NCBI GenBank assembly: GCA_003224135.1
Contig: QHYO01000239.1
Location: 1-14,670, forward strand
Length of the DNA stretch: 14,670 nucleotides
Direction of reading: 5' to 3'
Source of the DNA: Acidobacteriota bacterium
Lineage (GTDB): Bacteria; Acidobacteriota; Terriglobia; Acidiferrales; UBA7541
The notes under the pieces are model-generated. The model was not told the DNA's origin and searched no databases. It saw only the letters and a program-made list of their open reading frames with translations. The first letter of the stretch is position 1; each line of letters starts with the position of its first letter. The translations under genes were made by a program, and so were the position numbers. Of the stretch, positions 4,516 to 14,335 are shown one piece after another.

Positions 4516-5479
4516 ATGAAAGTCTGGGCACTGCACGGCTTCGGATTAAATCAGTTGAGATTTGAGGAAAGGCCGGTCCCCAAGCCGACAGCGAACGAGG
4601 TGCTAATTCGGATCGCTTCCGTCTCTCTGAATTACCGGGACAAGCTCCTCTACGATGGATTGTATAACCCAGAGCTGCGCTTCCCGATTGTTCCCGTTGC
4701 AGACGCTGCTGGAGAGGTGGTCGAAGTAGGCGGAGCTGTCAACCGATTTCGCATCGGCGACAAGGTTGTCACGCAATATGCCACGAAGTGGATCGACGGA
4801 GATCCCCAAGACGGTGAGTACCGCCACACTATCGGGAACACAATTTCGGGCGCGCTGGCGGAGTACATTGTCATCGACGAGCAGACACTGGTCGGCAGCG
4901 GTGACTGTGTGGAACGCCCTGGTTTGCAAAGGTAATTTGAAGCCGGGAGACACTGCCTTGCTTCAAGGCACGGGAGGCGTTTCCATTTTTGCTCTGCAGC
5001 TATCGACTGCACTAGGCGCAAAGGCAATAGTCATTTCGAGCAGCGACGAGAAGCTGCGACGCGTCCAAGAACTCGGCGCGGCCCACGGTATCAACTACTC
5101 GCGTTTTCCAGAATGGCAAGAAAAGGTTCTTGAACTGACGGATCAACGAGGTGTTGACCACGTCATGGATGTCGTAGGAGGAGAGAGCCTCAACCGATCC
5201 TTGAAAGCCGCGCGCCCGGGTGGAAATGTCTTTGCAATTGGACTCCTCGATGGTCTGACATCGACCGTTGAATTGTTTCGGCTGCTGACGAAACAGGTCA
5301 ACATTCAAGGGATTACTACCGGTTCTCGGGCCATGTTCGAGAAAATGAACAAGACTCTCACCCAGCTGAAACTGCGGCCGGTTATCGATTCTGTCTATCC
5401 CTTTGCCAATGCATTGTCTGCATTTCATCATTTAGAGAGGGGCGCCTTCGGCAAGATCGTGATTCGCGTCAGGTCCTGA
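4516..5479 (+). pseudogene. MDR-family NAD(P)-dependent oxidoreductase, broken by an internal out-of-frame deletion
   Basis: The start is clear (AGGAGG, nine bases, ATG 4516). The first frame gives a typical medium-chain dehydrogenase/quinone-reductase N-terminus (RPVPKPTANEVLIRI, VSLNYRDKLLYDGLY, GEVVEVG, FRIGDKVV, GALAEYIVIDEQTLV) and then runs to TAA 4933-4935. The rest of the family sequence continues from about 4890 in the +1-shifted frame: SAAVTVWNALV, the nucleotide-binding GTGGVSIFALQ, DVVGGESLNRSL, and the C-terminal HHLERGAFGKIVI, stopping at 5479. About 16 codons usually found between EQTLV and the AAVTVWNAL-type segment are missing, consistent with loss of roughly 47 bp near 4892-4903. 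The catalytic-zinc Cys is not evident in the N-part, so the ancestor was probably of the zinc-independent type. As written, only a truncated 139-residue N-domain would be made. Confidence 0.85.
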
Positions 5480-7347: not shown

Positions 7348-7926
7348 ATGAGCTTCGAACCGATTGAAAATTACGGGGTGATCGGCAATATGTGCTCGAT
7401 TGCTCTTGTGAGTGTGAACGGTTCAATCGACTTTCTCTGCTACCCCAATTTCGATTCTCCCACTGTGTTTGCAGCGCTGCTCGATGACGAGAAGGGTGGC
7501 TGTTTCGAGATTCAGCCGCAACTCGGAAAAAGGAAGGTACGACAACTGTATTTGCCAGACACGAACATTCTGCTCACGCGATTTCTTGCCGAGGAGGGTG
7601 TGGCCGAGCTGACTGACTACATGCCCATTGCTACCGACGGGGAGCAACCGAACGAGATTATCCGCACCCTGGCTGTGATCAGGGGCGAGATCGAATTCAA
7701 GATGCGATGCCAGCCACGATTTGATTATGCGAGGTGTGGGCACACCGTGAACATCGAAGATCAGTATGCGATTTTTTCGCCAGTGAGCGACGCTTGTCCG
7801 CCGCTGGCGCTGTACTCCACCGTTGCCCTGCGACAACAATCCCAGGATGCAATCTCGAATTTCACCCTGCGAGCCGGTGAGCGGGTCACGTTTGTCTTTG
7901 GTGGAGTTCGTCCCCAAGGACAGTAG
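7348..7926 (+). CDS. GH15 enzyme, N-terminal domain half (5' part of a gene split by in-frame TAG)
   Basis: These 192 residues are the N-terminal beta-rich domain (TREH_N type) of bacterial glycoside hydrolase family 15 proteins of about 600 residues. The opening is diagnostic: IENYGVIGNMCSIALVSVNG, FLCYPNFDSPTVFAALLD and the GGCFEIQP strand. Later come VAELTDYMPIA, IIRTLAVIRGEIEF and the domain end GERVTFVFGGV. Translation stops at TAG 7924-7926, but the same frame reopens at ATG 7933 with the catalytic domain and no frame change. A single base change from a sense codon (for example CAG, GAG or TCG) would explain the stop. On its own this half has no catalytic residues. It could be a fragment, or part of a two-chain enzyme if the second half is made by reinitiation. 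Confidence 0.85.
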   Translation: MSFEPIENYGVIGNMCSIALVSVNGSIDFLCYPNFDSPTVFAALLDDEKGGCFEIQPQLGKRKVRQLYLPDTNILLTRFLAEEGVAELTDYMPIATDGEQPNEIIRTLAVIRGEIEFKMRCQPRFDYARCGHTVNIEDQYAIFSPVSDACPPLALYSTVALRQQSQDAISNFTLRAGERVTFVFGGVRPQGQ

Positions 7927-7932
7927 CCCGAG

Positions 7933-9165
7933 ATGCAGTTCGTCGAGCAGCGCTTCCACGAGACCGCACGTTTCTGGAAGGGATGGATCGCGAAATCAAA
8001 GTACAAGGGCCGGTGGCGCGAAATGGTCAACCGTTCGGCCCTAATGTTGAAGCTGTTGATTAGCCGGGAGCATGGATCGCTGGTTGCGGCGCCGACATTT
8101 TCACTGCCAGAACAACTTGGTGGGCCGCGCAATTGGGATTATCGCTTCACATGGTTGCGAGATTCGGCTTTCACTCTCTACGCGCTGATTCGACTGGGTT
8201 TTGTCGAAGAAACGGAGTCCTTCATCGGCTGGCTGAAGGGGCGGCTCGGTGACGATGCGGAGCGGGGGCCGTTACAAGTCATGTACGGAATTGATGGCAG
8301 GCGGAAGCTCGATGAGCTGACGCTGGATCATCTGCCGGGGTATGAAAATTCAAAGCCCGTGCGCATCGGAAACGCAGCCTATCAGCAGTTGCAGCTCGAT
8401 ATTTATGGCGAAATGATGGATTCCATCTATCTGGCAAACAAGTACGGAGACTCGATTTCCTATGCCGGGTGGCAAGAAGTTCAGCGGATCTTGGAGTGGC
8501 TGGGCAAGAACTGGCAACGGCCCGATGAAGGTATATGGGAGGTTCGTGGCGGAGCGCGAGAATTCCTGCACTCGCGGTTGATGTGCTGGGTGGCTTTCGA
8601 TCGAGCACTGCGGCTTGCGCAGAAGCGCTCCCTTTCTGGGCCATTCGACGCTTGGCTGCGAACGCGTGACGCGATTCGAAACGATATCTTTACGAACTTC
8701 TGGGATGATGATTTGCGCTCGTTTGTGCAGTCGAAGGGCACGAAGGATCTGGATGCGTCGGTTCTGCTGATGCCGCTCATGCGGTTCATCAGCCCGGTCG
8801 ATCCGATGTGGCTCTCGACAATGAAAGCGATTGAAGCACGGTTAGTCGAGGATACCCTTGTCCGTCGCTACGAGGCGGAACGCACGCAGGTGGACGGGAT
8901 TCCAGGCGGAGAAGGCAGCTTCACTGCATGCTCATTTTGGTACATCGAATGCCTGGCGCGCTCCGGGGACTTGGAAAAGGCCCAACTGTTATTTGAGAAA
9001 CTCCTGGGATATGCCAACCATCTTGGTCTCTACTCGGAGCAAATCGGTCCAAGCGGGCAACATCTCGGGAACTTCCCACAGGCCTTCACGCATCTGGCGC
9101 TGATCAGCACCGCGACGTATCTGGACAGGGTCCTTTCCGGCAAGGACGACTCGGTGTGGCGCTAG
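7933..9165 (+). CDS. GH15 glucoamylase/trehalase-like catalytic domain (3' part of a split gene)
   Basis: These 410 residues, in the same frame as the preceding half, form the (alpha/alpha)6 barrel of family GH15 enzymes, which hydrolyse alpha-glucosidic bonds (glucoamylases, trehalases, glucodextranases). Family landmarks in order: RWREMVNRSALMLKLL (28-42), the substrate-binding NWDYRFTWLRDSAF (67-80), QVMYGIDGR (115-123), QLQLDIYGEMMDS (152-164), PDEGIWEVRGG with the general acid (198-207), LDASVLLMPL, and GLYSEQIGPSG with the general base near residue 365, then GNFPQAFTHLALIS. All active-site elements are therefore in this half. The ATG lies six bases after the TAG, and AAGGA at 7916-7920 is 12 bases upstream, so reinitiation is conceivable. 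No signal peptide is seen, so the enzyme should be cytoplasmic. It probably acts in storage-polysaccharide or trehalose metabolism. Confidence 0.88.
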   Translation: MQFVEQRFHETARFWKGWIAKSKYKGRWREMVNRSALMLKLLISREHGSLVAAPTFSLPEQLGGPRNWDYRFTWLRDSAFTLYALIRLGFVEETESFIGWLKGRLGDDAERGPLQVMYGIDGRRKLDELTLDHLPGYENSKPVRIGNAAYQQLQLDIYGEMMDSIYLANKYGDSISYAGWQEVQRILEWLGKNWQRPDEGIWEVRGGAREFLHSRLMCWVAFDRALRLAQKRSLSGPFDAWLRTRDAIRNDIFTNFWDDDLRSFVQSKGTKDLDASVLLMPLMRFISPVDPMWLSTMKAIEARLVEDTLVRRYEAERTQVDGIPGGEGSFTACSFWYIECLARSGDLEKAQLLFEKLLGYANHLGLYSEQIGPSGQHLGNFPQAFTHLALISTATYLDRVLSGKDDSVWR

Positions 9166-9367
9166 CATTTCTCACCTTGCTGCGGCAGGAAGGACATGTG
9201 GTGGAATTCAATCTACCAATAGGCGATAAGGCGTACGCATCATCGCTTGGCGCTGGTGTCGTTCGAGTTTAGTCCCCATTCGCGTTGATCTCTCAAGTCT
9301 TTACCCTAGTCTCGCTGCAGGGATTTGCTCCCTTGAGCCCTCGCACTTCACATGATATTTCCTTAAC

Positions 9368-9438: not shown

Positions 9439-10341
9439 ATGATCAAGCGTAACAGTTCGCCCCGGGCCTCTGGATTGCGCAATCCTCCGGCCGTGAAGTT
9501 AACCCTGAGCGAAGCGCCTTCTGAGCTTTTGCGCGAGCTAGTTGCGCACCTCCGCCAGAATCGCACGCAACTCCGCGAGGAGTGGGTCGCACGTATCTCG
9601 GAGACTCGGTTGCTCACCGCGATGACCAAGGATGAAATCTTCGCCGAAGCGACGTCGGTGTACGACAGCTACGTCGAAGCGCTCGAGACGGAAACCTTCG
9701 AAGCCCTTCAGGCCTACGCCAGAAACCTCTCGGAAAGGATTATTCCCCGCGGCGTCGAAACGCACGAAGTCGTCGGTATTGTTCTCCTCTTGCGTGACGT
9801 GCTCGCTCGCTCTCTGTTCGCCAAATATCAAACCGATTTCAGAAAACTAAACCGCATCCTCGACGCATACGAGCCGGCCGCCAACCGCATTGCCAACACC
9901 GTCGCTGTCGGTTTCGTCCAGGAGCGCGAACGTGTGATCCGCCAACAGCAAGAAGCCATCCGCGAACTCTCCACTCCCGTCTTGCAGGTTCGAGAGCGGC
10001 TTCTCATCCTGCCGATCATCGGCGTCATTGATCCACAGCGTGCCCGCCAACTCACCGAACAATTGCTCCGCGGTATCCGCACCAACCGGGCCAAGGTTGT
10101 CGTCATTGATATCACAGGTGTCGCGGCCATGGACGTGACCGTTGCCAACCACCTTGTTCAGACCGTTGAGGCTTCACGCCTCCTCGGTGCCACCGTCATT
10201 GTTACGGGTCTTTCTCCAGAAATCGCCCAGACCCTTGTCACCATCGGCGTCGATCTCGGAAAGATGAATACCGTCGGCGATTTGCAGGGCGGTATTGAAC
10301 AGGCGGAGCGCCTGCTTGGTTATAAAGTCGTGCCGTCGTAG
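9439..10341 (+). CDS. rsbR: RsbR-type stressosome co-antagonist (RsbRD-like N-domain plus STAS)
   Basis: RsbR paralogues sense stress and, with RsbS, build the stressosome that holds the kinase RsbT. This 300-residue protein has a helical RsbRD-type N-domain (about 25-160; LREEWVARI, YDSYVEALE, RGVETHEVVGIVLLLRDVLARSLF), a linker helix (161-177) and a C-terminal STAS domain (about 178-295; LSTPVLQVRERLLILPIIGVID, VVVIDITGVAAMD, LLGATVIVTGLSPEIAQTLVTIGVDL). The start is firm: AGGAGG (9429-9434) lies four bases before ATG 9439. The two positions matching phosphorylated Thr171 and Thr205 of B. subtilis RsbRA (34 apart) are Pro199 and Val233 here, with a Thr at 234. The protein is soluble and has no haem-binding globin signature. 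It begins a co-directional cluster with rsbS, rsbT and rsbX. The alignment behind the phosphosite remark is from memory. Confidence 0.9.
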   Translation: MIKRNSSPRASGLRNPPAVKLTLSEAPSELLRELVAHLRQNRTQLREEWVARISETRLLTAMTKDEIFAEATSVYDSYVEALETETFEALQAYARNLSERIIPRGVETHEVVGIVLLLRDVLARSLFAKYQTDFRKLNRILDAYEPAANRIANTVAVGFVQERERVIRQQQEAIRELSTPVLQVRERLLILPIIGVIDPQRARQLTEQLLRGIRTNRAKVVVIDITGVAAMDVTVANHLVQTVEASRLLGATVIVTGLSPEIAQTLVTIGVDLGKMNTVGDLQGGIEQAERLLGYKVVPS

Positions 10342-10392
10342 CAACTACTTTAGAGGCCTTTACCGCCCGGGCCGCGCTGGAAGAAGGTCAAC

Positions 10393-10694
10393 TTGGAAGT
10401 TCCAATTCTGAAGCAAGGAGAGTTTCTTATCGCGACGATTCAGGCCGCCCTGTCCGATGCCGATCTTGAGCATCTGCGAATGGCCCTCATTCAGCGCGTC
10501 GTTCGTTTTCGCTCGAGAGCAGTGATTGTTGACGTGACGGCGATGGATGTGATGGATTCCTTCGCTTCGCGTACGCTGAAGGAGATCGCCCAGATGATCC
10601 GCCTTCGCGGTGCGGAAACCGTGATCGTATTACGGCTTTAGATCTCGAAGAGGGGCTGGCGTACTTGAGTCAGAAATTCAAGAATCTCAACTAA
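10393..10694 (+). pseudogene. rsbS: RsbS-type STAS protein with an internal out-of-frame deletion
   Basis: RsbS is the small STAS-only scaffold of the stressosome; RsbT phosphorylates one Ser to release itself. From TTG 10393 (AAGG upstream) the frame gives a good RsbS N-part: EVPILKQGEFLIATIQAAL, VVRFRSRAVIVDVTAMDVMD, and the phosphoacceptor Ser56 (MDSFASRT, equal to B. subtilis Ser59). After AETVIV (residue 79) it reads three foreign residues and stops at TAG 10639-10641, giving 82 residues instead of about 120. The expected RsbS C-terminus (TALDLEEGLAYLSQKFKNLN) follows immediately in another frame from 10632 to TAA 10692-10694. About 22 residues (the GIQPxVA...LGI segment) are missing, consistent with a loss of about 64 bp. 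Either the gene is damaged or the sequence has an error. The truncated product would lack the last STAS strand and helices. Confidence 0.85.
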
Positions 10695-10706
10695 GAGAGA
10701 TGCGCA

Positions 10707-11126
10707 GTGCCGGCTGAGGAATCTCGTGTTCCGATCAACTCAGACCAGGACATCGTTCTTGCCCGGCAAAAGGGAAGAGCGTTGGCTGCCGATTCCGGTT
10801 TCTCGCCCGTCGATGCCACGCTCATTGCGACCGCCATCTCTGAACTGGCGCGCAACATCGTGACCTACGCGAAACACGGCGAGATCACACTGAGTGCTTT
10901 GGCTGAGTCCGGCCGCCGCGGCATCGGGATCGTCGCTTCTGATCAAGGTCCCGGAATAGCCGACATTCGGCAGGCGCTCCGCGATGGATTTTCGACCTCC
11001 GGCAGTTTTGGCCTCGGACTTCCGGGGGTTCGTCGTTTGATGGATGAATTCGAAATTTCCTCCGCGCCCGGCCAGGGAACAAGGGTGATGGTAAAAAAGT
11101 GGCGACAAGAGCGACTGGAAAAGTGA
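10707..11126 (+). CDS. rsbT: RsbT-type switch protein kinase
   Basis: RsbT phosphorylates the STAS domains of RsbS/RsbR and, once free, binds and activates a partner protein. This 139-residue GHKL-fold kinase has the expected boxes: DQDIVLARQKGRALA (13-27), the N box AISELARNIVTYA (43-55; Glu46, Asn50), G1 DQGPGIAD (79-86), FGLGLPGVRRLMDEF (101-115) and GQGTRVMV (122-129). The start GTG 10707 has AAGAGAGA just upstream and lies 12 bases after the original rsbS stop, as expected for coupled genes. It overlaps or abuts rsbX at its 3' end. No RsbV/RsbW pair is present, so its output partner is probably the downstream histidine kinase with the RsbU-like N-domain. Confidence 0.9.
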   Translation: MPAEESRVPINSDQDIVLARQKGRALAADSGFSPVDATLIATAISELARNIVTYAKHGEITLSALAESGRRGIGIVASDQGPGIADIRQALRDGFSTSGSFGLGLPGVRRLMDEFEISSAPGQGTRVMVKKWRQERLEK

Positions 11127-11725
11127 GCTTCATGGAGTTTGGAATCGCCGCGGCCGCAGTCGAAGGACAGAGCGAGTCGGGGGATATTCATGTGATGCAA
11201 TATGTGCGGGACCGCTTGCTCCTGGCGGCCATCGACGGAATCGGCCATGGCGACAGTGCCGCCGCGGCCGCACTGGCGGCCTCAGCCGTCTTGAAAGCGA
11301 ATCCTTCGGAGAGCTTGGAAACCCTGATGCAGATGTGTCACGATGTGCTTCGCTCCACACGCGGTGCGGTCATGAGTCTTGCCTCGATTTTTCCCCGCCT
11401 GGGCCAGATGCGCTGGCTCGGCGTCGGAAATGTGCAGGGCATGGTGCAACGAGCAGGCGCTGCAAAAGGTACCGTCCAGGAAGTGCTGTTGCTCAGAGCG
11501 GGCGTGCTTGGCGCGCAAATGCCTTCCCTTCAAGCGGCCACCGTTCCCCTCCGGACCGGCGACAGAATCATTTTTGCCACAGACGGCATTCGCAGCGGAT
11601 TCGTCGCTGACCTCTCTTCTCTCGATACCCCGCAGCGCTCGGCCGACAGGATCCTCCAACAACACTGCCGCAGCAATGACGATGCTCTCGTGGTCGTCGC
11701 GCGATATCTAGGGAACACGCCATGA
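11123..11725 (+). CDS. rsbX: RsbX-type PP2C/SpoIIE-fold feedback phosphatase
   Basis: RsbX removes phosphate from RsbS/RsbR and resets the stressosome. The product (200 residues from GTG 11123) shows the PP2C metal-site pattern: SGD with Asp21, AIDGIGHG with Asp38-Gly39, a late strand IIFATDGIRSGF and SNDDALVVVARY. Starts at GTG 11099, GTG 11123 and ATG 11132 are all possible. GTG 11123 was chosen because its GTGA overlaps the rsbT stop, which favours translational coupling; this choice is uncertain. The 3' end overlaps the histidine kinase start (ATGA 11722-11725), so rsbT, rsbX and the kinase form one tightly coupled unit. The length matches RsbX of B. subtilis (about 200 residues). There is no N-terminal sensory domain, which separates it from RsbU/RsbP. 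Confidence 0.85.
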   Translation: MSFMEFGIAAAAVEGQSESGDIHVMQYVRDRLLLAAIDGIGHGDSAAAAALAASAVLKANPSESLETLMQMCHDVLRSTRGAVMSLASIFPRLGQMRWLGVGNVQGMVQRAGAAKGTVQEVLLLRAGVLGAQMPSLQAATVPLRTGDRIIFATDGIRSGFVADLSSLDTPQRSADRILQQHCRSNDDALVVVARYLGNTP

Positions 11726-12666
11726 CACACGCTACCAGGCCCCGGCACAAGTCCGCCCCCACTCGCGAGGAGCTCTACCGCACTGCTCTCGCCGAATACG
11801 TCTCTGATGGTTCGGAAAATGCGCGCGGTAAGGCCTACGATCTAGGCCGCGCTTTTCTGAAGGACGGCGTCAGCCTTGTCGAGCTGGCAGCCATGCATCA
11901 CTCCGCGCTCTGCGAAGCACTGCGTTCGGGTCCCGGTAAGGCGGCGACAAGCGACGTTCTTTCCCGCGCAGCCGAGTTTCTATCGGAAAGCCTTTCTTCC
12001 TATGAAATGGCTCATCGCGGTTTTCAGGAGGCTGTTGGTGCGCTCCGCCGAATGAATGAAGTTCTCGAAGAGGAAATCAAACGCATCGCTTACGCCGTTC
12101 ACGATGAGGCCGGCCAGCTTCTTGTTGCCGTCCACCTCGCACTTGCCGACGTGGCGCGCGAAGCCCCTGACTCACGATGGCGCATCGAGACGATCAATGA
12201 CCTGCTGAAAAAAGTTGAAGTCCAGCTTCGCCAGTTCTCCCACGAACTTCGTCCCACGATCCTTGACGATCTCGGCTTGGTTCCCGCCATCCGCTCTCTT
12301 GCCGGCGCCGTTTCCAAGCGCTCGAATCTGCCGATCCGCGTCTCCGCGGAAATTCCGAAACGCCTCTCATCCTCTGCTGAAGTTGCCGTCTATCGTGTTG
12401 TGCAGGAAGCTTTGACCAATGCCGTAAAGCACGCACAGGCGCGCTCTGCCTCCGTCGAAATCCTCGAGCAAGACTCTACTGTTCATTGCATCATTCAAGA
12501 TGACGGAGTCGGATTTTCGCCGGAGTCCGTTAATCAAAAAGGTGAGCGCAAGGGACTTGGGCTATTGGCCATGCAGGAAAGACTCAATGCCATCGGAGGA
12601 ATCATTCAGTTTGAATCAGCACCCATGCGCGGTACTACCATTCGGTTGTCGCTCCGGAGACCCTAG
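11722..12666 (+). CDS. soluble NarL-type histidine kinase with RsbU-like N-terminal domain
   Basis: Residues about 14-108 resemble the RsbT-binding N-domain of RsbU: ELYRTALAEYV, GKAYDLGRAFLKDGVSLVELAAMHHSAL and FLSESLSSYEMAHRGFQEAV are the conserved helices. Residues 109-180 are a HisKA_3 dimerisation domain with phosphoacceptor His127 in YAVHDEAGQLL and the second helix FSHELRPTILDDLGL. Residues 215-312 are the ATPase: VVQEALTNAVKHAQA (N box, Asn233), DDGVGF (260-265), GLGLLAMQERLNAIGG (278-293). There is no membrane segment. ATG 11722 overlaps the rsbX stop as ATGA, and the NarL-type regulator follows 11 bases after its stop. Inference: RsbT binds the N-domain and controls kinase activity. 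The kinase call is firm. The RsbU-domain call is by pattern similarity and would need a profile search. Confidence 0.85.
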   Translation: MTHATRPRHKSAPTREELYRTALAEYVSDGSENARGKAYDLGRAFLKDGVSLVELAAMHHSALCEALRSGPGKAATSDVLSRAAEFLSESLSSYEMAHRGFQEAVGALRRMNEVLEEEIKRIAYAVHDEAGQLLVAVHLALADVAREAPDSRWRIETINDLLKKVEVQLRQFSHELRPTILDDLGLVPAIRSLAGAVSKRSNLPIRVSAEIPKRLSSSAEVAVYRVVQEALTNAVKHAQARSASVEILEQDSTVHCIIQDDGVGFSPESVNQKGERKGLGLLAMQERLNAIGGIIQFESAPMRGTTIRLSLRRP

Positions 12667-12677
12667 ATAGGACAAAG

Positions 12678-13310
12678 ATGCCCATTCGCATAGTGCTGGC
12701 CGATGATCATGTGCTCGTCCGCCAAGGTCTTCGGGCCTTGCTTGAGCGAGAAGGCTTGCAGGTGATTGGCGAAGCCGCTGATGGCCGCGAGGCCGTACAA
12801 CAGGTACAAACACTTCGGCCCGACGTGGTGATTATGGATATCAGCATGCCCACCCTCAATGGTCTCGATGCTGCCCGCGAAGTCTCGAAGTCTTTTCCGA
12901 AGACCAAGACCATTCTTCTGACCCAGCATGAAGAAGATGTTTATGTATCCGGAGCGCTCGAAGCCGGCGTTCGGGGCTATGTCCTGAAGAACCAGGTCGC
13001 GAGCGATCTGCTCCACGCCGTGCAGCGTGTCTCCTCAGGCCAGGTCTATCTGAGCCCCGGCGTCTCGCAAGCTGTCGTATCCGCGTACCAATCGCGGCCG
13101 GGAAAATCCGCTGACCCTCTCACGCTGCGCGAACGCCAGGTCCTCCAACTCATCGCAGAAGGCAAATCCACAAAGGACATTGCTTCTATTTTATTTATCA
13201 GCGTAAAAACCGCCGAATCCCACCGTTCGCGCCTCATGCAAAAACTCGAAATTCACGAGATTGCCACACTCGTGCGCTATGCCATTCGTCACGGCCTCGT
13301 TCGCCCGTGA
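12678..13310 (+). CDS. NarL/LuxR-family response regulator
   Basis: This 210-residue protein has a receiver domain (1-120) and a LuxR-type helix-turn-helix (about 145-208). The receiver shows Asp9/Asp10, phosphoacceptor Asp54 (VIMDISMP), Thr82 (ILLTQHEED) and Lys104 (GYVLKN). The output domain has LTLRERQVLQLIAEGKSTKDIA and ISVKTAESHRSRLMQKL, typical of DNA binding. It follows the histidine kinase by 11 bases with TAGGA before ATG 12678, so the two almost certainly form a cognate pair. It probably activates genes in response to the stressosome signal. Its targets are not evident, although its own operon and the GGDEF gene 218 bp downstream are natural candidates. Confidence 0.93.
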   Translation: MPIRIVLADDHVLVRQGLRALLEREGLQVIGEAADGREAVQQVQTLRPDVVIMDISMPTLNGLDAAREVSKSFPKTKTILLTQHEEDVYVSGALEAGVRGYVLKNQVASDLLHAVQRVSSGQVYLSPGVSQAVVSAYQSRPGKSADPLTLRERQVLQLIAEGKSTKDIASILFISVKTAESHRSRLMQKLEIHEIATLVRYAIRHGLVRP

Positions 13311-13528
13311 CCTTCTGCTTACAGTTTTTCCGTTAGGGCAAATCCCCGATCAGTAAACGGGCCATTCCTCCACGCAATCTAGGGCGTCAACCTGATTTTC
13401 CTTTTTCCCGATTCCCGTATTCTGCGCCCGAGCAGCGCCGGTGCTCCCTTCTCACTAATCTTGGGCGTCTCTCCCAATTCGCCTAGCTTAGCGGACTCCG
13501 GCGTTGCCCAAAGAGGGCTCGACTCGAC

Positions 13529-14335
13529 ATGAAGGCCTCTCCCGGCGACGGTGGATTGCAGATCTCTCAGTTCGATCTTTCTCGCCCGAGTGTTTTCTGG
13601 TCCCCTCACGGCGAGGTGGTCGATGACGATCCCCTCATGAAATCAGTCGAGCACAGTTTTGACGGAGAGGAAGAACACGGCCAACTCGATCATCTAATCT
13701 CGCAACTCGCTCTGTGCGCTCCCGCCTCAAATGCCAGCTTTGACGAACTCCAGAGTTTTCGCAAAATCCTCCTCGAAGCAGCTCGCGCCGTCTCCATGCG
13801 GTCCCGTTTTCTCGACCGGCTTCGCTCCTTTGCGCTCACTGACGACCTGACAGGGCTATACAACCGTCGCGGCTTCCTCATCCTTGGGCTGCAGAATCTT
13901 AAGCTGGCCAGCCGCACAGGCTATTCTCTTCTTCTCTTTTTTGTAGACATTGACCAGTTCAAGCGCATCAATGACTCTCTCGGGCACCTTGAGGGCGACG
14001 CCTTTCTCCTCTGCTGCGCCGAAATCCTCAAGAGCACGTTCCGGGACTCAGACATTATTGCGCGGATCGGCGGCGATGAGTTCGTGATCCTCGCTCAGGA
14101 GACATCAGAAAACAGCAGCGAAGCCATTTTCCACAGGCTAGAATCCGCCTTGCAGTTGCTGAACGAGAAAGTGGATTCCCCTCACAAGCTTTCTCTCAGC
14201 GTTGGCGTGGCGCGGTTTGATCCGCAAAATCCTGTTTCCCTTGGAGAGCTTCTCTCCGTTGCCGATCGCGAGATGTTCGAGCGAAAGCGCGGGCGCGTTT
14301 CTCGGGTACAGGATCAAGGCGACCGCTCTTCATGA
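13529..14335 (+). CDS. GGDEF diguanylate cyclase
   Basis: This 268-residue cytoplasmic protein joins an N-terminal region without recognised domain (1-95, acidic GEEEH at 46-50, then a helical linker FRKILLEAARAV) to a full GGDEF domain (about 100-265). Key elements: LTDDLTGLYNRRGF (103-116), FFVDIDQFKRINDSLGH with metal-binding Asp140 (137-153), the inhibitory I-site RDSD (172-175) five residues before GGDEF (181-185), and LSVGVARF. All catalytic residues are intact, so it should make c-di-GMP with product inhibition. ATG 13529 is the first start; ATG 13637 is an alternative. It lies 218 bp after the response regulator on the same strand and may be its target or a co-transcribed output of the stressosome cluster. 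No receiver domain is fused to it. Confidence 0.92.
   Translation: MKASPGDGGLQISQFDLSRPSVFWSPHGEVVDDDPLMKSVEHSFDGEEEHGQLDHLISQLALCAPASNASFDELQSFRKILLEAARAVSMRSRFLDRLRSFALTDDLTGLYNRRGFLILGLQNLKLASRTGYSLLLFFVDIDQFKRINDSLGHLEGDAFLLCCAEILKSTFRDSDIIARIGGDEFVILAQETSENSSEAIFHRLESALQLLNEKVDSPHKLSLSVGVARFDPQNPVSLGELLSVADREMFERKRGRVSRVQDQGDRSS

Follow-up and report, generated by a model that had tools for sequence, protein, structure and literature searches.

The locus at positions 9439-14335 of the soil Acidobacteriota contig QHYO01000239.1 raises the question of what a stressosome gene set (rsbR, rsbS, rsbT and rsbX) controls when no sigma-B (SigB) is found with it. The stretch analysed, hereafter the window, is the complete contig of 14,670 nt, and its parent assembly comprises 4.54 Mb in 804 contigs and is 85% complete. 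A first-pass annotation of the window had described seven co-directional genes, and had proposed that the stress signal passes from RsbT to a histidine kinase, and from there to transcription and cyclic di-GMP (c-di-GMP). Seven open reading frames (ORFs), all on the + strand, were found at 9439-14335, and the families assigned by Pfam agreed with the domains described. With good confidence, we read the locus as a minimal rsbRSTX stressosome operon whose output is a kinase of the RsbU_N-HisKA_3 type and its NarL-type response regulator. The features are as follows:

9293..9308, no strand: candidate regulator-binding dyad TCAAGTCTTTACCCTA, matching 11/12 positions of TMRGGTNNNNACCYKA, ~130 nt 5' of rsbR
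9439..10341, + strand: rsbR, RsbRD_N (globin-like in the model) and STAS domains, with P199 and V233 at the threonine columns
10393..10641, + strand: rsbS, STAS domain, 82 amino acids, shortened by a 61-nt gap with a frameshift
10707..11126, + strand: rsbT, GHKL-type switch kinase, HATPase
11099..11725, + strand: rsbX, PP2C/SpoIIE feedback phosphatase
11722..12666, + strand: soluble histidine kinase, RsbU_N, HisKA_3 and HATPase_c domains
11776..12012, + strand: RsbU_N domain (PF08673) inside the kinase, candidate RsbT dock
12678..13310, + strand: NarL-type response regulator, REC and LuxR helix-turn-helix (HTH; GerE) domains, with a KTxE-type recognition helix
13529..14335, + strand: GGDEF protein with an intact GGDEF motif

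The N-terminus of the kinase is an RsbU_N domain (E 5e-9, 36.6 bits against a curated cut-off of 25.5), and a profile of 56 relatives finds the Bacillus subtilis RsbU structures 2j70 (E 6.2e-6) and 1w53 (E 6.4e-5). The domain was present in 119 of the best 120 kinase relatives listed, out of 5192 proteins matched overall. Since the kinase begins with RsbU_N, the RsbT-docking domain of RsbU, which the first-pass annotation had not recognised, the inferred route from RsbT to the kinase is the best supported. Because the kinase carries this candidate dock, the core idea of that annotation is right in kind and stronger than it was stated there. RsbT would act on the kinase through this candidate dock. 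The only RsbU_N match in the whole assembly was the cluster kinase itself, in agreement with the predicted absence of an RsbU phosphatase.

The kinase model (predicted local distance difference test 83.1, predicted template modelling score 0.48) shows four N-terminal helices, the last of which spans residues 73 to 147, runs through His127 and joins RsbU_N to the phospho-acceptor helix. RsbT activates RsbU by ordering such a linker helix, according to excerpts of PMC12143880. In a structure search the kinase core resembled DesK and VraS; RsbU was absent among the structures listed, whose matches cover mainly the kinase part. Residues H127, N233, D260, G262 and G264 were invariant in 56 kinase sequences; we take H127 to be the phospho-acceptor histidine and the other four to belong to the N and G boxes. 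Distance matrices from the 56 complete loci out of 81, from which a duplicate filter took out none, gave a kinase-regulator partial distance correlation of 0.85.

The linkage of these genes is conserved in related genomes. A full-length kinase match was found in 13 of the 24 same-genus genomes searched; one more (G017) had two half matches at contig ends, another (G015) had a fragment, and the other nine had far weaker matches only, six of these nine being at least 90% complete. The order R-S-T-X-kinase was kept in all 13 fetched same-genus loci, with a whole regulator in 12 and a 46-residue match in the remaining one; the unlinked rsb and kinase-regulator loci that would have contradicted the first-pass annotation were not encountered. 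Across the phylum, RsbU_N was found in 15 of 396 genomes (16 hits; 14 genomes above the cut-off) and a close RsbR also in 15 of 396, and 11 genomes had both (hypergeometric P 2.2e-15, assuming independent genomes). This co-occurrence supports, together with the domain itself, the proposed step from RsbT to the kinase. Four genomes had a close RsbR but showed no RsbU_N; the contig stops ahead of the kinase in three of them, and the fourth (G327) has rsbR-like and rsbS-like genes with no rsbT or rsbX within the fetched stretch.

For the 15 RsbU_N genes of the phylum beyond that of the window, rsbT was found within the fetched stretch in 13 cases, and 13 of the 15 encode a kinase; another (L060) breaks off where its contig stops, past PAS domains. 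The whole ORFs of L071-L073 fell under the RsbU_N cut-off. An RsbU phosphatase was found in none of the 14 readable RsbU_N genes in the phylum. L070 (G355:C303, 1812-5909) carries an R-S-T-X cluster and, after it, another rsbT and an RsbU_N-GAF-sigma-54 activator (HTH_8), through which RsbT might act directly on sigma-54 transcription; Thr occupies the first phosphosite of the RsbR at this locus. L061 (G192:C153, 5496-7475) has rsbT, an RsbU_N kinase and a regulator, with no rsbR, rsbS or rsbX match in the fetched stretch.

A wider set was obtained from an RsbR scan of named genomes, in which the best 80 of 471 loci were examined with local profiles. These loci were picked by RsbR similarity and are therefore no census; the best matches were Acidobacteria metagenome-assembled genomes (MAGs), many with a gp2 label. 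Among the 67 loci with at least 3.5 kb downstream, all had rsbS, rsbT and rsbX, 55 had RsbU_N, and 54 had RsbU_N together with a REC-LuxR regulator. The titles, which are the submitters' own, name Acidobacteria, Gammaproteobacteria, Betaproteobacteria, Nitrospirae, Bacteroidetes/Ignavibacteria, Eisenbacteria and Gemmatimonadetes. The 12 loci without RsbU_N were all Gemmatimonadetes-titled and had a sigma-54 activator instead, as the next classified gene past rsbX (L124, L130, L134, L138, L140, L144, L147-L149, L153, L155 and L157). No RsbU_N was found in these activators, either by Pfam (two scanned) or by local profile, and ten aligned activator N-termini appeared receiver-like by eye. In an Ignavibacteriales-titled locus (L171, 2640-4847) a second RsbU_N protein, a HisKA-REC hybrid kinase by local profiles, lies 5' of the rsb operon.

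The upstream part of the cluster corresponds to a stressosome, as R, S, T and X are all present, in that order, and related to solved stressosome proteins. The PDB sequence matches of RsbT were anti-sigma F factor chains only, and the best PDB match of RsbX was 3zt9, presumably a Moorella protein. The absence of sigma-B noted earlier held across the 85%-complete assembly, where no SigBFG match passed the cut-off (best 134.6 bits against 234.35, in a 583-residue ORF); RsbV and RsbW were not found among the cluster genes, a genome-wide search not having been made. The rsbX stop and the kinase ATG overlap as ATGA (11722-11725), and 11 nt separate the kinase stop from the regulator start, both as first described. 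An overlap of rsbT and rsbX as GTGA (11123-11126) also stands, on condition that rsbX starts at GTG 11123; the alternative in-frame starts are GTG 11099 and ATG 11132. Coupled expression is thus plausible for rsbT, rsbX, the kinase and the regulator, whose junctions are tight, but this coupling stops before the GGDEF gene, which lies 218 nt past the regulator.

The regulator step is supported by a dyad found 5' of rsbR in gp2-type loci, for example CTCAGGT-CTTT-ACCTGAG. The dyad was scored as at least 11/12 positions of TMRGGTNNNNACCYKA, in the interval 420-100 nt before a fixed RsbR codon, in the 78 testable loci out of 81 (the window and the 80 others). It was present at 35/40 operons whose regulators have a KTx[ED] recognition helix, with the placement of this helix being our assumption, at 1/2 TTxN operons (L164, 11/12), at 5/12 operons without a classified regulator, and at 0/11 STxN and 0/13 sigma-54-activator operons. 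Dinucleotide shuffles reached the threshold in 47/7800 cases with the same pattern and range. An earlier count from 300 to 100 nt had given 36/59 kinase-type, 0/13 sigma-54-type and 2/6 cut loci. Twelve of these loci have a further regulator gene, which is itself preceded by a dyad in L099, L103, L108 and L110 and by a weak one in L102 (threshold 9). Since the dyad tracks the type of recognition helix, autoregulation is suggested: the regulator may bind the predicted dyad 5' of rsbR and control its own operon. This conserved association supports the step from the kinase to transcription that had been proposed.

In a genome search with the strict dyad, 40 matches were found in 13/15 genomes, against 3 for a reversed-pattern control (all in G014), and 12 of the 40 sit at rsbR promoters by our own count. 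Thirty of the 40 matches were turned into loci, and scanning 20 dyad-flanking or cluster proteins revealed PilZ, GGDEF, HrcA, sugar transferase, LuxR-type and other families, six proteins being matchless. The neighbours of further dyad sites are suggestive only as regulator targets. At L209 (G013:C37, ~1501) a one-mismatch dyad has a PilZ-domain gene on either side, the two being divergent; the regulator might have a c-di-GMP target here.

From these data the following mechanism can be proposed. RsbR and RsbS would hold RsbT sequestered until a signal at the globin-like RsbR domain sets it free; RsbT could then dock on the RsbU_N domains of the kinase dimer, and docking might order the long helix between RsbU_N and the phospho-acceptor, thereby switching the kinase. 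The kinase would pass phosphate to the regulator, which may bind the dyad 5' of rsbR and so probably boost its own operon; in some relatives it may also act at further sites, a few of them adjoining c-di-GMP genes. RsbX would reset the system via RsbS-Ser-P. The GGDEF protein would be a linked second arm, more likely regulator-controlled or parallel than directly controlled by RsbT.

Several observations weigh against this reading. The window N-domain alone gave PDB matches to RsbU at E 0.22-1.5, non-significant and ranked below unrelated chains. The RsbU residues E24, Y28, I74 and I78 are buried in the RsbT interface (excerpts of PMC12143880), and when mapped by hand only one of the four is kept: E24 corresponds to kinase E32, invariant in 56 aligned sequences, and Y28, I74 and I78 are replaced by G36, S88 and S92. 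The RsbT-RsbU_N partial distance correlation was 0.13, indicating no special coupling, and RsbU_N tracks RsbX (0.52) more than it tracks RsbT; the RsbT-RsbX value was 0.42. Poorly kept contact residues and the lack of a pairwise co-variation signal would fit control of the kinase by transient phosphorylation instead of docking, as proposed for VvD1 of Vibrio vulnificus, where an RsbT-D1 interaction was not found (PMC9237108). We consider this improbable here, as no RsbU_N was detected in the V. vulnificus system whereas the cluster kinase has one, and the presence of RsbU_N follows rsbT. A kinase-dead RsbT still activates its PP2C target, according to the title of a work cited in the excerpts of PMC4976288. 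Weak RsbU_N kinases with a NarL-type regulator and no rsbT in the fetched stretch (L072 and L073), and PAS domains inserted between RsbU_N and the kinase core in some relatives (L041, L151 and L163), which give those kinases other inputs, suggest another possibility, namely that the kinase and regulator form a neighbouring pair answering to a separate signal, RsbU_N serving only to dimerise or to bind another partner and the linkage being historical. This is even less probable, given that the order is kept in 54/67 RsbR-selected loci with titles of several phyla and that the dyad is at the rsbR promoter of an operon that encodes the regulator too. A stressosome locus (L069) is present at another place in G131, the genome to which L072 belongs. 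Regarding the dyad, regulator subtype and dyad both track phylogeny, so that their association supports the regulator as the binder, short of proof. The dyad was found in 17/22 KTx[ED] operons outside the derivation loci L093-L111 (window included), a count that is not fully blind because best hits in further loci had already been seen when the IUPAC pattern was set down and the range extended to 420 nt. Beyond the rsb, second-regulator and GGDEF neighbourhoods, the strict-dyad search revealed no clear target shared across genomes, and it gave no match in the window's own genome or in G023.

The remaining difficulty concerns rsbS, and here the description of a full RsbRSTX set does not hold for the window. 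Its product has 82 residues, against 120-124 in 14/14 relatives (13 of the same genus and one from another family of the same class), and the alignment showed that 61 nt are absent and the frame is shifted. The part lost is the end of the STAS domain, which is not intact in the contig. Only one protein (93 residues) was shorter than 117 among the best 120 of 3903 RsbS database matches. The phosphorylatable serine column is retained as Ser56 (aligned to Listeria RsbS; S59 in B. subtilis), and serine is found there in 78/79 RsbS hits. A genuine deletion would leave RsbT poorly sequestered in this contig, and the kinase might be driven constitutively. The copy could then be a decaying pseudo-operon with a true rsbS deletion and further broken genes on the contig, such as a trehalase-like GH15 gene (7348-9165) with an in-frame TAG at 7924-7926 and a putative alcohol-dehydrogenase-like gene at 4516-5479 that is split between two frames. 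We regard such decay as rather unlikely, as the six remaining cluster genes are open with constrained codon positions, and the nearest database RsbS, of 120 residues, is 100% identical across 96% of the 82-residue query, so that intact near-identical proteins are known. As far as the comparison reaches, the truncation is confined to this MAG contig, or else it is an assembly error, which the fragmentation into 804 contigs makes plausible. Among the matches listed, the closest kinase relatives (P0001-P0003, 93-94% identical) are on metagenome contigs of ~2-2.5 kb. At the contig end (14415-14669, - strand) a fragment has a sub-threshold DDE transposase match (20.8 bits, cut-off 23), which may have caused the assembly to stop there.

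The proposed passage of the signal to c-di-GMP is the weaker part of the original idea. The GGDEF domain was assigned by Pfam and its motif is intact. The first 100 residues of the protein have no Pfam match at E 0.001, and no RsbU_N was found in it; direct control by RsbT is therefore not favoured. Of the 13 same-genus loci, eight have the GGDEF gene downstream on the same strand and three have it upstream and divergent; the fetched stretch of the other two does not contain it. This variable place and strand, the 218-nt distance and the lack of GGDEF genes downstream in Nitrospirae- or Bacteroidetes/Ignavibacteria-titled loci, within the sequence covered, make it quite possible, though not probable, that the protein is unconnected with the stressosome output. 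Against this, it is linked in 11/13 same-genus loci, and in the divergent arrangement the region with the dyad is common to it and rsbR. It is also the next classified gene past the regulator in ten further loci (L112-L116, L118, L119, L122, L123 and L132), titled Gammaproteobacteria, Steroidobacteraceae, Acidobacteria or Terriglobia. Across the linked loci, the catalytic part of the protein shows 37-53% identity with that of the window. Judging from this gene linkage, the GGDEF protein is functionally linked to the stressosome, and it is probably not a direct RsbT target.

The RsbR of this operon is unusual. In eight genomes from other families of the phylum, RsbR was 81-88% identical to that of the window (local alignments, the variable first residues being omitted), against 84-90% for ribosomal protein uS12 in the same genomes, 51-67% for RsbT and 38-45% for RsbX (7 of 8). 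RsbR is thus about as conserved across the phylum as uS12, while the other operon genes diverge freely; within the genus uS12 was more conserved (97-99% versus 91-99%). Comparison of the window with four same-genus loci showed differences of 48-69% at third codon positions in every gene analysed, against 0.7-5.7% (rsbR), 22-33% (rsbX) and 27-29% (kinase gene) at second positions. The window genes are under constraint by codon position, and the contrast between third and second positions in rsbR indicates constraint and not recent transfer. A universal ligand, or else a very tight constraint from assembly, may account for so nearly frozen an RsbR. The RsbR model (78.7 and 0.50 by the same two scores as the kinase) resembles Listeria RsbR and, weakly, globin sensors. 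Haem binding was considered and is not favoured: H109, which lies in the region where we would expect the haem ligand, is not conserved, although H37 is invariant and the model is globin-sensor-like.

The RsbR of the window has P199 and V233 at the columns of B. subtilis T171 and T205, placed by PDB variants of Listeria RsbR and by PMC3944199, and the phosphothreonines are not present. Counting the window together with the 80 loci, 80 sequences carry Pro and one carries Ser at the first site; at the second site Ser occurs 33 times, Val 24 times, Ala 22 times and Leu twice. Eight further phylum loci have Pro (5), Ser (2) or Thr (1) at the first site, and one of them, L071, carries Thr at the second. 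The close RsbR subfamily has therefore generally, though not universally, lost the first site. The excerpts of PMC3944199 report the view that phosphorylation of T171 primes the B. subtilis system, but also that signalling survives T171A and S59A together in a simplified strain, so that natural stressosomes without a T171-type site bear on whether signalling needs RsbR phosphorylation.

Taken further, the data may point to a widespread Gram-negative stressosome class with no priming RsbR phosphothreonine, an RsbR nearly frozen across several phyla, an RsbT-activated kinase, a positive loop at the rsbR dyad, a c-di-GMP arm in soil bacteria and a fixed sensor with swapped outputs; for this reading our doubt slightly outweighs our belief. 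The swapped outputs of such a class would be the RsbU_N kinase or, in Gemmatimonadetes-titled loci, the sigma-54 activator without a recognised RsbU_N.

The wiring of RsbT to a kinase is not the first of its sort, as its outline is known for some Proteobacteria. Kinases with RsbU N-domains occur in rsbT operons there, and a Fig. 5E legend describes a model of an NreB-named RsbU-type kinase from a gammaproteobacterium (excerpts of PMC12143880). A survey that began from haem globin-coupled RsbR describes rsbRSTX modules whose outputs are c-di-GMP signalling and phosphorelays, RsbU_N being present in some of them (excerpts of PMC9237108). The idea is the same and the architecture probably so, with stressosome genes followed by an RsbU-N kinase with a predicted coiled-coil linker; the excerpts of the two accounts hold no Acidobacteriota loci, operator, GGDEF linkage, replaced RsbR threonine or RsbR conservation. 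In the open-access literature (subscription papers being outside the search), RsbU_N with a histidine kinase was found only in PMC9237108; stressosomes came up together with Acidobacteria in one paper, with sigma-54 in three and with Gemmatimonadetes in none.

In Moorella thermoacetica, RsbT controls the MtG diguanylate cyclase (Quin et al. 2012, as cited in excerpts of PMC12143880 and PMC4976288). There, as in the window, an RsbU N-domain and RsbT govern a non-phosphatase output, but RsbU_N is on the GGDEF protein in Moorella and on the kinase, not the GGDEF protein, here. The V. vulnificus system likewise has rsbRSTX without SigB, tied to two-component (D1/D2) and c-di-GMP signalling, and differs in the undetected RsbU_N and in its RsbR, with Ser199 and Thr233 at the phosphosites (excerpts of PMC9237108) in place of Pro and Val. 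The B. subtilis RsbRST-RsbU-RsbVW-SigB pathway shares the R, S, T and X set and the RsbT-docking domain, whereas the output here is a histidine kinase instead of the RsbU phosphatase and SigB is below the cut-off in the assembly. The additions that most deserve to be followed are the operator, the replacement at the RsbR phosphosite and the near-freezing of RsbR, and the locus offers a concrete, conserved stressosome to two-component route with a predicted operator open to immediate assay.

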